Part shown: positions 37,466 through 44,666 of the stretch, piece after piece
Layout: every line of letters starts with the position of its first letter
Position numbering within the stretch: position 1 is the stretch's first letter
DNA from: Natrinema sp. HArc-T2
Lineage (GTDB): Archaea > Halobacteriota > Halobacteria > Halobacteriales > Natrialbaceae
Assembly: GCF_041821085.1 (NCBI RefSeq)
Contig: NZ_JBGUAZ010000001.1
Coordinates: 682,001-746,000 of the forward strand
Length of the DNA: 64,000 nt
Direction of reading: 5' to 3'
Translations under genes and position numbers: made by a program
The notes under the pieces: model-generated
What the model was told of the DNA's origin: nothing
The model's input: only the letters and a program-made list of their open reading frames with translations
Databases searched by the model: none

Positions 37466-38245
37466 CTACAGGAGCGTCTCGACGGCGGCAAGCGACTCGA
37501 GGACGTGGTCGGGTTCGATCGACGACTCGGCGAGGACCGTCCGGTCAGTGACGCCGGTGAGTACCAGAGCGGTCTCCATACCGGCGCGATTCCCGAGTGC
37601 GATATCGGTGTTGAGCCGGTCGCCGACGACGAGCGTGTTCGCGGGCTCGGCGTCCAGCCGGTCCATCGCTGCGGTAGCCGCGATCGAGGACGGTTTGCCA
37701 AGAATCGCATCCGGCTCGCGACCGGCGACGGCCTCCATCGCAGCGAGGATCGCCCCCGTCCCCGGAATCTCGCCTTCGTCAATCGGGATCGTCGCGTCGG
37801 GATCGGTGCCGTAAAACGGTATTTCGCCCTCGAGCGCTCGCAGCGACTCCCAGAGCGTTCCGAACGAAAACTCCCTGTCGAACGATCCCAAGACGACTTC
37901 CGCCGCGTCGGGATCGTTCGTCAGTTCGACGGCTGCGTCCTCGAGAATCGCCTCGAGTCGCCCGTCGCCGACGAGAAAGACCCGCTCGCCAGGGTGGGTC
38001 GCCGCGAGGTACTCAGCCGAGACGGTCGCAGAGGTGAGGACGGTCGCCGGATCGACGTCGATCCCGTGGGGTGTGAGTTTCGCCCGGTAGTGGTCGGCGC
38101 CGCGCGTCGGATTGTTCGAGAACAGGAGTCGCGAACAGCCCGCTGCCTCGAGCGCTCGTAGACCATCGATCGCGCCGGGAAGCAACGCTTCACCCCGGAC
38201 GATCGTTCCGTCGACATCGAGGATCGCCGCCTCGTACGTTGTCAT
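37466..38245 (-). CDS. HAD-superfamily phosphatase, NagD/PGP type
   Basis: A 259-aa HAD IIA hydrolase. Motif I is ILDVDGTIVRGEALLPGA (DxDGT, Asp nucleophile at residue 8), motif II LFSNNPTRGAD (~43), motif III/IV KPSSIAATAAM and GDRLNTDIALGNRAGM (~206). Relatives dephosphorylate small sugar phosphates, phosphoglycolate or nucleotides. ATG 38245 is chosen; the longer frame starts before the motif I region by 33 unlike residues. Divergent from the 155-aa gene. Confidence 0.88.
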   Translation of the reverse strand: MTTYEAAILDVDGTIVRGEALLPGAIDGLRALEAAGCSRLLFSNNPTRGADHYRAKLTPHGIDVDPATVLTSATVSAEYLAATHPGERVFLVGDGRLEAILEDAAVELTNDPDAAEVVLGSFDREFSFGTLWESLRALEGEIPFYGTDPDATIPIDEGEIPGTGAILAAMEAVAGREPDAILGKPSSIAATAAMDRLDAEPANTLVVGDRLNTDIALGNRAGMETALVLTGVTDRTVLAESSIEPDHVLESLAAVETLL

Positions 38246-38388
38246 TGCCCGCGGATACGGATGGCAGGCGATTGAGTGTTTGGATGGGCAAGACGAATCC
38301 AACAGCACATGACCGGCAGTGCCCACGGCTCGTTCCACCAGCACGACCGGTGGGAATTCTTATCCGACGATCCGACCTACGACCGCGT

Positions 38389-38856
38389 ATGACACTCGAG
38401 GCCGAGCCCCCCGAACCGCCGGAACTGGAGTTCGTCGACCCGAACGAGTACGAGGATGCAACGATTAGCGCCGACGGCGAGGAGATCGACTACCGTCGCG
38501 AGGAGCTGCAGGCGTTCCTCGAGGAGGGCGCATGGGAGGAGGCGTTCGACGAGTGGCGCGTCGACACCGATCTCACAGAGCGTGAGTACGGAATTGCCCG
38601 CGATCTCGAGCTGTTCGGCGGGTTTGATTTCTTCTGGGACGACTTCGCCGACCGCGTCGGCTATCACGCACCGGGAATTCCGGAAGACTGGCAGGCACGG
38701 GAGTATCATCCCGACCTCGACACCTGGGGGACGGTCTCGGCGATCAACGCCGAACTGACGGAGTTCGGGCAGCTCGTCTCCGTGACTCTCAAAGAGGAGT
38801 ACGTCGACTGGGAAGCCGAGTACGAACCGCCGGAAGACCTGCCAGATTTCGACTGA
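38389..38856 (+). CDS. Uncharacterised acidic 155-aa protein
   Basis: A very acidic soluble protein (MTLEAEPPEPPELEFVDPNE... ending PEDLPDFD). The body is rich in Trp and Tyr: WRVDTDLTEREYGIARDLE, GFDFFWDDFADRVGYHAPG. No cysteine, no helices crossing the membrane. Not recognised. The start ATG follows a TATCCGAC stretch ~30 bp upstream. A family A repeat copy begins 14 bp after its stop. Confidence 0.7.
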   Translation: MTLEAEPPEPPELEFVDPNEYEDATISADGEEIDYRREELQAFLEEGAWEEAFDEWRVDTDLTEREYGIARDLELFGGFDFFWDDFADRVGYHAPGIPEDWQAREYHPDLDTWGTVSAINAELTEFGQLVSVTLKEEYVDWEAEYEPPEDLPDFD

Positions 38857-39649: not shown

Positions 39650-42600
39650 TCAGCGAGCGACGGTCATCGCGACGCCGAGCAAGACGAGACCGACGATGAC
39701 CGCCCCCGCGCCGGTCGCGGCACTGCCGACGAGCACGGCAACGGCTCCGGCGACGACACCCGCAGCACCACCGCCAGCGGCGATCGACGACAGAAGCCCC
39801 GGCGTCGCGCTCGTGTCTGCCCGCACGGTGTCGAGTTCGCTCCGAAGCGCCTCGAACTCTTCGTCTCGGTCACCCTGTGTCTCGATATCGCCGAGCCGTG
39901 TGTCGATCGTGCTGAGACGCTGCTCGAGCGCAGAGTGTTCGTCAGCAATCGTAGCCAGCCGTCCATCCAGTGCGTCGAGTTCGGAGTCGAGCGCCTCGAC
40001 CGCCGATTCGTCGGGACTGGAGTCGACAGCCTGCGCGAGGTCGTCGTGATCCGTCCGAAGCGACTCGAGTCGATCGGCGACGGTCGAGACGTCGGCTTCG
40101 ATCGCGGTCACGGCAGCCTCGCTCGCCGCATCATCGACCGCTTCGATGCGGTCACTGTGATCGTCCAATCGATGCGCGACCTCATCGAGTCGGTCGGTAT
40201 GATCGTCGAGTCGGTTCGTTGTCTCCACGACTCGTTCGTCGTGGTCGTCCAGCCGATTCGCGGTTTCGTCAAGACGCTCGGCGTGATCGGTTAGTCGGTT
40301 CTCAGCCTCATCGTGACGGTCGTCGTGGTCGTTGAGCCGGTGCTCGGTCTCGTCGACGCGCTCATCGATCGCCGACATCGTCTCGGCAAGCGCGTCCGTT
40401 TCGCGCTCGAGGTCGGCTTCGAGCGCAGTGAGGTCTGCCGCGAACGTCGTTTCCACGTCGTCGAGCCGGTCACCGACCGTCTCGAGCGTCGTCACGAGGT
40501 CATCGATCTCGTCCTCGGCGTTGGCGAGCGCGTCACGCAGCGTATCCAGCTCGTCGTCCGTGACCGATTCGGCATCGCTCCGTTCGACCATCGACTCGAG
40601 CGCCGCGAAATCGTTGTCAAGCGCGCTCGTCGCCGACTCGAGACGGGCATCGATGTCGGTGACGGTTTCGTCGATCCGCTCCTCGAGTGTGTCTTCGAGC
40701 GAGTCGACCGAGGACTCGAGTCCGCGGATGTCCGCTTCAACCGTCTCGAGATCCGTCGCGAGGCTGTCGACCGTCTCCGTGCTGGCTGCGCGCGCCGTGA
40801 GGTCATCCAGTTGCGTTTCGATCGCCGAAATCGTCCCGTCAACGTCGTCGAGTGCCGCCTCGAGCTCCGTTATCTCATCCTCTATGCGGGTGTCGAACGT
40901 CTCGCGGACCGTGTCCAGTTCGTCGTCGATAGCGCCGAGTTCCTCGTCGAGCGTCGTCTCGACTGTCTCGAACCGTGCGTCGGTCCGCTCGACGTGTTCC
41001 GCGAGTCGGCCAGCAACGCCGTCGAGGCGCGTCCGCAGTTCTTCGAGCCGGCCAGCGACGCCGTCGAGTCGCGCCTCGCGCTGCTCGAGGGCTTGCTCGA
41101 GATCCGTGATCTCGTCTGTGAGCTCCGAGACGGTTCCCTCGAGTGTCTCGAGTGACGCTTCGGTCGCGGCGGCCACCGCGAGGTCGTCGACCTCTGTCCG
41201 GACCTCGTTGAGTGCCTCGTCGATCGTCGCCGCCCGATCGGTGACGGTCTCGAGATCGGCAGCCAACTCGACGAGTCGATCGTCGAGCGTGGATCGCTCG
41301 TCGGCTGCTGTCGCCTCGACTTCGGTGAGCGTTTCGTCGACGTCGTCGACATCGGCCTCGAGCGCGTCGAACGCGTCCGACAGGGCCTCGAGGTCGTCGG
41401 AGAGCCGCTCAATGTCGTCGTCGAGACTCGCAACGACCGTTTCGGTAGCGTGGGTCTCGCTTTCGGCCTCGAGCTCGGCCAGGTCGTCGGCGAACGACTC
41501 GAGCCGGTCGTCGAGTGCGGCGACGTCTTCGGCAGCGGCTGTCTGGGCGTCGACGTACTCGAGGTCCTCGAACAGCGCCTCGAGATCCTCGCGGACGGAC
41601 TGGATCTCGTCATCGCGATTGGCAAGTCGGTCGAACAGCTGGTCGATAGCGTCGTCCGTGGGATCGGGGTCCGCGTCGGCGGCTTCGAATTCGTCGAAGG
41701 AGAGTGCCGTATTCGTAGGTGATCCGCCCTCGAGAGCCGATTTCGCGTCGGGCGGGGACGTGTCGGCTCCAGCGAGTTCGGGTCTGGTTATCGCTTCGTC
41801 GGCCTTGACGTCGTCTCGCGCGGCCGCGAGCGCGCCCCTGACGGCGCTCTCAGCGGGCGTGTCCGCGAGTCGAACGTCTCGGACCGAGAACGGGACCGTC
41901 GCCGCATCGAAACGCCCTCCGACGAGGAACTCGAGGCCCTCGATCGCCCCGTCGCCCGCGATCGCGACTGGGATGGACAGCCCCCGCTGGACATCGGTCT
42001 CGTCGGCTTCCGCTCGGATCGCGTCGATCAACTCGGCCACGAGGTCGTCGTAGGCCTCGGCGAGGGCGCTCTCGAGCCCGCCTGCTGCCACGTCGGGGTC
42101 GAGCGTCAGGTCCTCGAGTGTACTGGCCACCTGTGGTGGCGCGTGATCGGTGTCGGCGGCCACGCGGTCGACGATCCACTCGTGGCCCTTCGCGATCGAA
42201 ACGGCAACCGCCGGCACGCCGTAGTACGCCACCGTAGCACTGGTCGTCTGGGCCTCGAGACAGACGCCGAGCCCGGTGTAGTTGTCGGCTGCAAACTGAT
42301 CGTAGATGACGGCGAACCCCTTGCTGATCGGCCTTGGTTCGACGTCGCGATCGGTCAGTGCTGCTGTTACGGCCTCGTGGTGGGTGTCGGTCGGCGCTGC
42401 CGTATCAACCGGCGTTCCCACCGTCGTATAACAAAGTCGACCGTCGGTCGCGTCCCCGATGGCGTCGTCGACGAGCGCGTCCAGAAGGGGCAGCGCATCT
42501 GCAGGGACATCCCCAGCAAGCATACCGTCTACGAACAGTGACTGGGGTTCCCCCTCGGTCGTCTCTGCGGCGTTCTGGGCTGCCGTCCCGACCGCATACG

Positions 42601-42769
42601 TCGTTTCGTCGACCTGGACGGTGTCGCTCTCCGCTGCGAGTTCAGCCGCTGCAAGCGTGTCGTCGTCGACCGGCAGCACGATCGGCGGGACCGAATCGAT
42701 CGTCGGGCCGTCACCGTCGTCGGTGGCGGCGCGAATCGCTGCTGGCCCGATGTCGAGACCGTACTCCAT
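39650..42769 (-). CDS. Actin-like ATPase domain / long coiled coil / C-terminal membrane anchor
   Basis: A 1039-aa protein. Residues ~1-320 look like an actin/MreB-type ASKHA domain: phosphate-1 loop YGLDIGPAAIRAA (3-15), a phosphate-2-like strand GLGVCLEAQTTSATV (166-180), the following YYGVPAVAVSIAKGHEWI (182-199), and an adenosine-loop-like VAIAGDGAIEGLEF (268-281). Residues ~372-985 are an almost continuous coiled coil of Ala/Leu/Asp/Glu heptads; residues 806-875 are five 14-residue repeats. The end (990-1039) is a Gly/Ala-rich pair of membrane helices. No close named family. ATG 42769 gives MEYGLDIG. Divergent from pckA. Confidence 0.72.
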   Translation of the reverse strand: MEYGLDIGPAAIRAATDDGDGPTIDSVPPIVLPVDDDTLAAAELAAESDTVQVDETTYAVGTAAQNAAETTEGEPQSLFVDGMLAGDVPADALPLLDALVDDAIGDATDGRLCYTTVGTPVDTAAPTDTHHEAVTAALTDRDVEPRPISKGFAVIYDQFAADNYTGLGVCLEAQTTSATVAYYGVPAVAVSIAKGHEWIVDRVAADTDHAPPQVASTLEDLTLDPDVAAGGLESALAEAYDDLVAELIDAIRAEADETDVQRGLSIPVAIAGDGAIEGLEFLVGGRFDAATVPFSVRDVRLADTPAESAVRGALAAARDDVKADEAITRPELAGADTSPPDAKSALEGGSPTNTALSFDEFEAADADPDPTDDAIDQLFDRLANRDDEIQSVREDLEALFEDLEYVDAQTAAAEDVAALDDRLESFADDLAELEAESETHATETVVASLDDDIERLSDDLEALSDAFDALEADVDDVDETLTEVEATAADERSTLDDRLVELAADLETVTDRAATIDEALNEVRTEVDDLAVAAATEASLETLEGTVSELTDEITDLEQALEQREARLDGVAGRLEELRTRLDGVAGRLAEHVERTDARFETVETTLDEELGAIDDELDTVRETFDTRIEDEITELEAALDDVDGTISAIETQLDDLTARAASTETVDSLATDLETVEADIRGLESSVDSLEDTLEERIDETVTDIDARLESATSALDNDFAALESMVERSDAESVTDDELDTLRDALANAEDEIDDLVTTLETVGDRLDDVETTFAADLTALEADLERETDALAETMSAIDERVDETEHRLNDHDDRHDEAENRLTDHAERLDETANRLDDHDERVVETTNRLDDHTDRLDEVAHRLDDHSDRIEAVDDAASEAAVTAIEADVSTVADRLESLRTDHDDLAQAVDSSPDESAVEALDSELDALDGRLATIADEHSALEQRLSTIDTRLGDIETQGDRDEEFEALRSELDTVRADTSATPGLLSSIAAGGGAAGVVAGAVAVLVGSAATGAGAVIVGLVLLGVAMTVAR
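40145..40354 (-). repeat. Five 42-bp tandem repeats inside the coiled-coil gene
   Basis: Five in-frame 42-bp units encode 14-residue repeats of the form DExxxRLxDHxxRx (for example DETANRLDDHDERV, DEVAHRLDDHSDRI). They extend the coiled coil by exactly two heptads per unit. Confidence 0.75.
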
Positions 42770-43154
42770 GCCCTCGGCAACTCGAACCACCCTCTTGTGA
42801 CTTTTCCCGGGAATACCAGATGTGATACTGCCGGACGGCACGGGTCAGACACCGAGCAGACGCACGGCACAATCGCTGACGGCGAGGGGATATCGAGGCG
42901 TGAGTGGACAGTCATGAACAGCTAACGAGCCCCAATCTAGTAAGAAAACCGACACAGGTGAGTTCAGAATTATCTCGTATCTGAATACTTGTGACAGGGA
43001 GTCACGGAGCCTGTGTCATAGGGGTGTGCCAATCAGAGTATTGCCGGCTACTCAGGGTCTACGCACCGTACGTCACCTCGTCACTGGGTACGCCATGCCA
43101 CACAAAGAGAGAAATCCTCACGTTTATCTATCAGGCTGGTGGTGGTTTATGTGT
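42770..43154. promoter_or_regulatory. 385-bp divergent promoter region of the actin-like gene and pckA
   Basis: No gene supported here. The pckA side holds TTTATCTA (43123-43130), a TATA box 25-30 bp before the start. At 42951-43017 three perfect inverted repeats are nested: GACACAGG/CCTGTGTC enclosing TTCAGA/TCTGAA and GTGAC/GTCAC. On the minus strand the outer stem is followed by GGTTTTCTT. This may be a structured RNA or a complex operator. Confidence 0.55.
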
Positions 43155-44666
43155 ATGTCTGAAACCGGGACGGAGTCTCGTCCGCTGGTCCGGCAACTTC
43201 CCGATCCAGCGGCAGCGTCGAACGTCCGGTACAACCCGTCGCTTGAGGAGCTGCGTGAACTTGCCAAACCCGACGAGACGACGACCGAGTTCGGGTCGCC
43301 GTCGTACGTCAGCGAGTTTCGGTCGCGGAGTTCCGATCGGACGAAAAACGCCATCGACCACGAGTTCACCGACCACGATCAGGAACTGATCGACGACGCC
43401 GTCGATCTGGCTTCCGACGTCGAACTGGTCTGTGTCGACCGGCTGATGGGCCGCCATCCGGACGCGTCCTTCTGCTGTCGTCTGTTCGTTCCCGTCGAGC
43501 ACGCTCGGATCGCCTACGCGTGGGCGAACCTCTTCGAGCCCGCCGACGGGGCGGACCCCGATCTCTACACCGTCCAGCTGCCCGACTACGACGAGACTGC
43601 GATTCGCGTCCTGCCCGACACCGGCTTTACCGCCGTGCTGGGCAGCGACTACACCGGTGAGGCCAAGAAATCGTTCCTGCGGCTGTTCATGTATCGGATC
43701 AAACAGCAGGGCGGCCTCGGTCTCCACGCGGGCAGCAAGCGCGTCCGCGTCCGCAACGAAAACGACGAGCTCCAGACCGTCGGTCAGGTGTTCATGGGCC
43801 TGTCCGCGACCGGCAAGTCCACGCTGACCTCCCACGGCTGCTGGCTCGAGGACCCCGAAGACGCGTCCATGCTCCAGGACGACGTCTGTGGGCTGCTCTC
43901 GGACGGCTCCGTCGCCGGCAGCGAGGGACAGGGACTGTTCATCAAGACGATCGGCCTCGGCGAGGACGAACAGCCCGAACTCTACGAAGCTGCAACCGAC
44001 GAGTCGGCCATCCTCGAGAACGTCGCGGTCGACGACGACGGCACCGTCCACTTCGACGAGGACCGCTATACCTCGAACTCTCGGGCGATCATCCAGCGTG
44101 ACGAACTCGAGAGCGCCGACGAGGAGATCGACCTCGGCAGCATGGATCAGGTCTTCTTCATTACGCGCAACCCCCTGATGCCGCCGGTCGCCAAGCTCAA
44201 CGAAGAGCAGGCCGCCGTCGCATTCATGCTCGGCGAGTCGATCGAGACCAGTGCGGGCGATCCGTCGCGGGCCGGCGAGTCGATCCGCGTCGTCGGGACC
44301 AACCCCTTCATCATCGGCTCTGAAGGTGAAGAGGGCAACATCTTCCACGAACTGATCGACATTCTCGACGTCGACTGTTACGTGATCAACACGGGATATC
44401 TCGGCCAGAAGTCCCAGGACATCGGTGTCACCGAGTCCGTGACGATTCTCACCGAGACCGCTCGCGGCACCATCGAGTGGACCGACGACGAGGAGATGGG
44501 GCTGACGATCCCCGAAACCGTACCTGGCATCGACATCGAGGAGTTCTACGTGCCGGACCACGTCGAGGACTACGACGAGGCGCTTTCGGACCTCCGCGCC
44601 GAACGGCGGGAGTATCTCGAGCAGTTCGAGCAACTCCGCGACGAGATCAAAGACGCCGTGTACTGA
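43155..44666 (+). CDS. pckA: Phosphoenolpyruvate carboxykinase (ATP)
   Basis: A 503-aa ATP-type PEPCK. The kinase P-loop is GLSATGKSTLTSHG (~218-231). Other motifs: RIKQQGGLGLHAGSKRVRVR, DDVCGLLSDGSV and VFFITRNPLMPPVAKLNEEQ. It forms PEP from oxaloacetate for gluconeogenesis, which fits growth on acetate via the methylaspartate cycle. Start: MSETGTESRP at 43155 or ATG 43149. A TATA box 25-30 bp upstream implies a leaderless transcript. Confidence 0.93.
   Translation: MSETGTESRPLVRQLPDPAAASNVRYNPSLEELRELAKPDETTTEFGSPSYVSEFRSRSSDRTKNAIDHEFTDHDQELIDDAVDLASDVELVCVDRLMGRHPDASFCCRLFVPVEHARIAYAWANLFEPADGADPDLYTVQLPDYDETAIRVLPDTGFTAVLGSDYTGEAKKSFLRLFMYRIKQQGGLGLHAGSKRVRVRNENDELQTVGQVFMGLSATGKSTLTSHGCWLEDPEDASMLQDDVCGLLSDGSVAGSEGQGLFIKTIGLGEDEQPELYEAATDESAILENVAVDDDGTVHFDEDRYTSNSRAIIQRDELESADEEIDLGSMDQVFFITRNPLMPPVAKLNEEQAAVAFMLGESIETSAGDPSRAGESIRVVGTNPFIIGSEGEEGNIFHELIDILDVDCYVINTGYLGQKSQDIGVTESVTILTETARGTIEWTDDEEMGLTIPETVPGIDIEEFYVPDHVEDYDEALSDLRAERREYLEQFEQLRDEIKDAVY

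Follow-up and report, generated by a model that had tools for sequence, protein, structure and literature searches.

A Volactin-family actin fused to a long coiled-coil rod and a predicted membrane hairpin in Natrialbaceae

What kind of protein joins an actin-like head to a long coiled coil and a membrane tail, and what might it do in a haloarchaeon that also encodes a stand-alone actin? The question arises from the window, a 64,000-nucleotide stretch of Natrinema sp. HArc-T2 DNA, in which positions 39650-42769 on the minus strand form one uninterrupted frame of 1039 aa with an ATG start at MEYGLDIG. An earlier note on this DNA had given the same frame, strand and length, and the three actin landmark strings that it had picked out are all found in the translation. 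The protein and its neighbours are laid out as follows.

41819..42769, minus strand: actin-fold head, Volactin family PF25216, residues 1-317 (Pfam, AF2, Foldseek/VIA)
41654..41818, minus strand: acidic Pro-rich linker, residues 318-372 (composition, homologue linkers)
39815..41653, minus strand: long acidic coiled-coil rod, residues 373-985 (periodicity, AF2, homologue lengths)
39653..39799, minus strand: C-terminal hydrophobic Gly/Ala hairpin, predicted membrane anchor, residues ~991-1039 (hydropathy, conserved pattern)
43026..44666, plus strand: ATP-type PEP carboxykinase (PEPCK), divergent neighbour and conserved syntenic flank (Pfam PF01293, synteny)
38239..38856, plus strand: 205-aa ORF, convergent neighbour and other syntenic flank (synteny, empty sites)

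The fused gene has no operon partner, as both the divergent PEPCK gene and the convergent ORF lie on the opposite strand. The 205-aa ORF at 38239-38856 (+) has no Pfam match; relatives of the genus have it at 75-95% identity, some of them with a tandem paralog (~40-45% identity). An Rfam search returned nothing.

The head matches the Pfam Volactin model PF25216 with 389.4 bits (E=2.1e-116; curated cut-off 35 bits) over model positions 1-321 of 321, and all 29 of the 29 full-length homologues match it as well. An AF2 model of the head, computed from an alignment of 45 heads, has a mean pLDDT of 88.3 and a pTM of 0.89 and shows the two-domain actin/ASKHA fold. Searched against the PDB with Foldseek, it finds MreB best (E=1.8e-12), followed by related actins, and VIA-align pairs it with MamK (Z 26.7, 288 residues, 3.1 Å), MreB (Z 25.2) and eukaryotic actin (Z 24.5). 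A profile search of PDB sequences gave FtsA as its sole match (E=0.003). The predicted fold and the family match together confirm the head as a Volactin-family protein. The earlier note was therefore right to call it an actin and mistaken in leaving it unplaced, since it belongs to a known family and is a paralog of a solo volactin in the same genome. This second volactin is a 343-aa protein (G000:C1:777986-778948 (-), locus L087) that is 32% identical to the head. The only hit in an MreB-family search of the same genome was a partial match in a 648-aa frame, which we read as a putative DnaK.

The described volactin (VolA, HVO_2015) belongs to the same family across the entire head, but it is a stand-alone protein of ~340 aa without a coiled coil or membrane segment. 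The rod and hairpin add ~700 residues to that design, and the protein is thus not a stand-alone volactin. Salactin of Halobacterium salinarum, likewise a haloarchaeal actin homologue, is a separate actin, reported as closest to MamK and typically present in single copy; that account makes no mention of a coiled coil or membrane tail (PMC10746226).

The rod contains a single Pro and 12 Gly in 613 residues and has a net charge of -155. Its hydrophobic residues recur with a period of 3.56 residues, at a power of 1.08 compared to 0.37 ± 0.05 in 200 shuffled sequences. The full-length AF2 model predicts helix from 372 to 984, mostly at pLDDT 50-84, interrupted briefly at about seven points (near 408, 440, 535, 661, 735, 880 and 919), and so bears out the earlier wording of an "almost unbroken" coiled coil; confidence in this model is moderate (pTM 0.34) and its global arrangement is not interpretable. 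The breaks lie close to similar motifs (among them AATEASLETLEG, ASTETVDSLATDL and SSPDESAVEALDSEL; window 39815-41653, minus strand), as if the rod were built of hinge-linked segments. As one continuous helix, at 0.1485 nm per residue, the rod would measure ~91 nm, which is an upper bound. The rods of 34 full-length proteins span 141-847 residues (median 617), whereas head and hairpin are retained. Such freedom in length is easier to square with a spacer or tether than with a rod bearing fixed binding sites.

Kinship of the rod to myosin, tropomyosin or SMC proteins was considered and rejected, because dozens of unrelated coiled-coil families match it, which is heptad noise. The resemblance to the rods of EzrA, crescentin and tropomyosin is equally of low specificity, resting on the heptad pattern, and those proteins lack an actin head. 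Pfam reports only Volactin and non-specific coiled-coil families in the protein, with no myosin-like P-loop motor domain; with neither a motor domain nor a partner gene, the "myosin-like" scaffold that had been proposed finds no support.

The C-terminal tail has Kyte-Doolittle means of 1.4-2.3 (19-residue windows) from residue 991 to the end. Its last 49 residues comprise two hydrophobic stretches parted by a Gly/Ala/Ser/Thr turn, GSAATGAG, and carry the conserved pattern AGGGGAGVVAG...G...G. These features are consistent with a hairpin that is predicted to anchor the protein in the membrane, and both of its ends would then face the cytoplasm. The periodicity, which is far above that of the shuffles, and the modelled helix uphold the claim of a long coiled coil, and the hydropathy and conservation of the tail agree with a predicted membrane segment. 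At the other end of the rod, the linker (window 41654-41818, minus strand) is variable except for a short motif, T-x-L-[AS]-F-D, found immediately before the rod in 16 homologue linkers. Its last two residues, F358 and D359, are conserved in at least 90% of 29 full-length proteins, and the start of the rod (DDAIDQLFDRLANRD) is also conserved. This motif may serve as a docking site or peptide.

The nucleotide site required a correction. The earlier note had read a Glu in place of the phosphate-2 Asp, which proves to be a register error: in the model the phosphate-2 strand comprises residues 166-171, L171 occupies the canonical Asp position, and E172 is the next residue, a variable one (Gly in 20, Glu in 17, Asp in 3 and Arg in 3 of 43 fused heads). 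The Asp position holds Leu, Ile, Val or Met in fused heads and Phe in 54 of 54 stand-alone volactins. As the Asp is absent from the solo proteins too, its loss is, judged from sequence, shared by the whole Volactin family, and Haloferax volactin, which lacks it, still makes dynamic filaments (PMC10869688). What sets the fused heads apart is the loss of residues that are invariant in solo volactins, with E146 replaced by Thr in 38 of 43 and G174 by Gln in 30 of 43, and an altered R194-G195-G196 loop that has lost G196, a residue invariant in solo haloarchaeal volactins. E146 lies in an A-E-P segment that, aligned by eye, would match the E-E-P motif of MreB, and it is not conserved in phage volactins. 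It is possible that the fused heads have reduced or changed hydrolysis. The phosphate-1 Asp and Gly are retained in most fused heads of family f1 (D6 in 41 of 43, G8 in 37 of 43), as are T176 and G272, which leaves nucleotide binding and self-assembly possible.

To what extent is this architecture a fixed unit? Of the 125 family f1 genomes, at least 81 carry the fused form (head matches at E<=1e-60), in all 81 within open frames of at least 649 aa, and two further f1 hosts, G089 and G130, were detected through the tail sequence. The named f1 hosts, Haloterrigena sp. H1, Natronorubrum, Natronobiforma and three Natrialba species, are all Natrialbaceae. In families f7 and f10 there are five more such fusions (780-909 aa); their genes sit at other genomic positions and their hairpins differ in sequence. 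Re-examination of other order-level genomes yielded no fused copies, second matches being nearly all short and weak, in frames of ~350-575 aa, and the f5 genomes checked likewise showed none. A search of 391 genomes with the tail sequence matched solely fused-volactin ORFs and one fragment, a 208-aa frame in the fragmented assembly G301, where the corresponding head lies on another contig. That fragment aside, no case of a tail encoded without a head was found in these 391 genomes. Head and tail thus occur together in every homologue examined.

The PEPCK and/or ribosomal L11 flank is kept at ~30 of 43 distinct loci. The fused gene is missing from 9 of the 29 genomes of the window's genus, and it is therefore dispensable. 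Six of these nine loci were read for hidden copies. Five (in G019, G016, G020, G222 and G008) show a clean gap of ~1.1-1.6 kb between the same flanks, and the syntenic site of G023 (L157:6361-6684) holds a decayed remnant in which the start of the head is joined to its end, with a large internal deletion and a frameshift. Loss removes head and tail together. Intact copies are under purifying selection, as in close pairs dN is lower than dS in head, rod and tail (dN/dS ~0.24-0.35 in the head and ~0.3-0.5 in the rod).

In a tree rooted with the volactin-like proteins of three large phage/viral contigs, solo volactins and fused heads form separate clades (support 97/94 and 96/91, respectively), and in an earlier tree without an outgroup all fused heads lie on one side of a single branch. 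This pattern fits an early haloarchaeal duplication, one fusion event and later losses, although the long branches call for caution. Within family f1 the two copies differ greatly in conservation, with a mean pairwise identity of 96% among 26 sampled solo volactins compared to 54% among 43 fused heads. Head, rod and hairpin look to have been kept as a unit since a seemingly single ancestral fusion, beside an almost invariant solo volactin. On this view the duplication would have left one actin copy invariant, presumably the one that polymerises, and let the other diverge as a tethered protein.

Dynamic filaments in vivo and a role in disk shape are known for Haloferax VolA only, and the filaments of that protein cross the cytoplasm and meet the membrane by their tips alone, for which binding factors have been proposed (PMC10869688). 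We tentatively favour, at a little under even confidence, a reading in which the fused protein is a membrane-tethered volactin paralog whose head binds or caps volactin filaments, or joins them terminally, and so holds or seeds them at the membrane. The hairpin would sit in the cell membrane with the head and rod in the cytoplasm, and the rod would dimerise and serve as a spacer, or as a flexible arm reaching up to ~90 nm. The head, with its altered active-site neighbourhood, may then bind or cap the ends of volactin filaments or add to them as a terminal subunit, and the filaments would thereby be anchored or nucleated at the membrane. The earlier note had proposed a membrane-anchored actin that links filaments to the envelope; the predicted rod and hairpin of that architecture stand, and the linkage itself is plausible. 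Haloferax volcanii, in which no actin other than volactin has been identified, anchors the tips regardless (PMC7617734). Given this and the lack of a fused form in f5, tip anchoring does not need the fused protein, and an anchoring role cannot be universal.

The same features might be arranged otherwise. The heads might co-assemble into an independent membrane-attached actin polymer from which the coiled coils radiate or bundle, a second cytoskeleton beside volactin. The complete actin fold of the model, the retention of D6, G8, T176 and G272, and the polymerisation of volactin in vivo (PMC10869688) all agree with this. It is made unlikely, in our judgement, by the loss of several solo-invariant residues near the active site, and the great differences in rod length between close relatives fit a regular bundle poorly, though they are compatible with one. 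Somewhat less probable again is a membrane-tethered nucleotide switch, using the fold as PilM or Hsp70 does, which would scaffold or sense some process at the envelope and form no filaments. Non-polymer actin-fold proteins are many, the conserved T-x-L-[AS]-F-D resembles a docking peptide, and the fast evolution of the head (54% mean identity, against 96% for the solo volactins of the same family) would suit such a role; however, the head scores over its full length within a polymerising family, and a switch would lack a conserved operon partner, the window's flanking genes being on the opposite strand.

The clean syntenic absences in close relatives and the decayed G023 remnant also bring to mind a dispensable accessory or conflict protein, directed, for instance, at phages or mobile elements with volactin-like actins, and huge phages do encode volactin homologues. 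We regard this as very improbable. The gene has a stable chromosomal site by PEPCK/L11 in most hosts, with no defence-island setting, PADLOC matches are confined to the coiled coil and non-specific, and the hosts of volactin-bearing phages are not known as haloarchaea.

The membrane-tethered paralog that we favour would play a part roughly akin to that of RodZ for MreB or FtsA for FtsZ, except that the actin carries its own anchor. MreB with RodZ shares the fold and the combination of an actin with a coiled coil/TM membrane anchor, but the bacterial anchor is a separate protein and not, as in the present case, part of the actin chain. FtsA, the single PDB profile match, likewise has an actin fold and ties a filament to the membrane; it does so with a short C-terminal amphipathic helix and no long rod, and it binds FtsZ. 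A narrower form of our reading places the fused protein, as an actin subunit with its own rod of up to ~90 nm and its own membrane anchor, at the tips of volactin filaments, so that one paralog supplies the polymer and the other its attachment. This is doubtful; if true, haloarchaea would possess a self-contained actin system that includes its own link to the membrane.

We found no description of a fused archaeal actin/coiled coil in the open-access papers in PMC, in agreement with the novelty claimed for the architecture. The Volactin family is known, and the predicted actin-rod-hairpin arrangement appears undescribed in the literature searched. For the membrane attachment of archaeal actin filaments, the fused protein offers a concrete and genetically separable candidate link in Natrialbaceae. 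Annotation with PF25216 by the head alone hides this second architecture.

Volactin-family actins also sit in very large viral/phage contigs, and the family reaches beyond haloarchaea. PF25216 matches L160:4791-5831 (IMGVR_UViG_3300042261_002269) at 4e-66, and the proteins from L163 (LR745208.1, 485 kb) and L164 (LR756511.1, 595 kb) are 37% and 34% identical to the solo volactin, respectively. Large plasmids bear solo volactin genes at L161:1165-2193 (Haloarcula marismortui pNG700) and L162:2171-3205 (Natrinema thermotolerans CP031304.1), both annotated as hypothetical proteins. At L142:4391-5354 (G131:C4), on a 13-kb contig, a solo volactin is split across two reading frames, and two intact copies are present elsewhere in the same genome.
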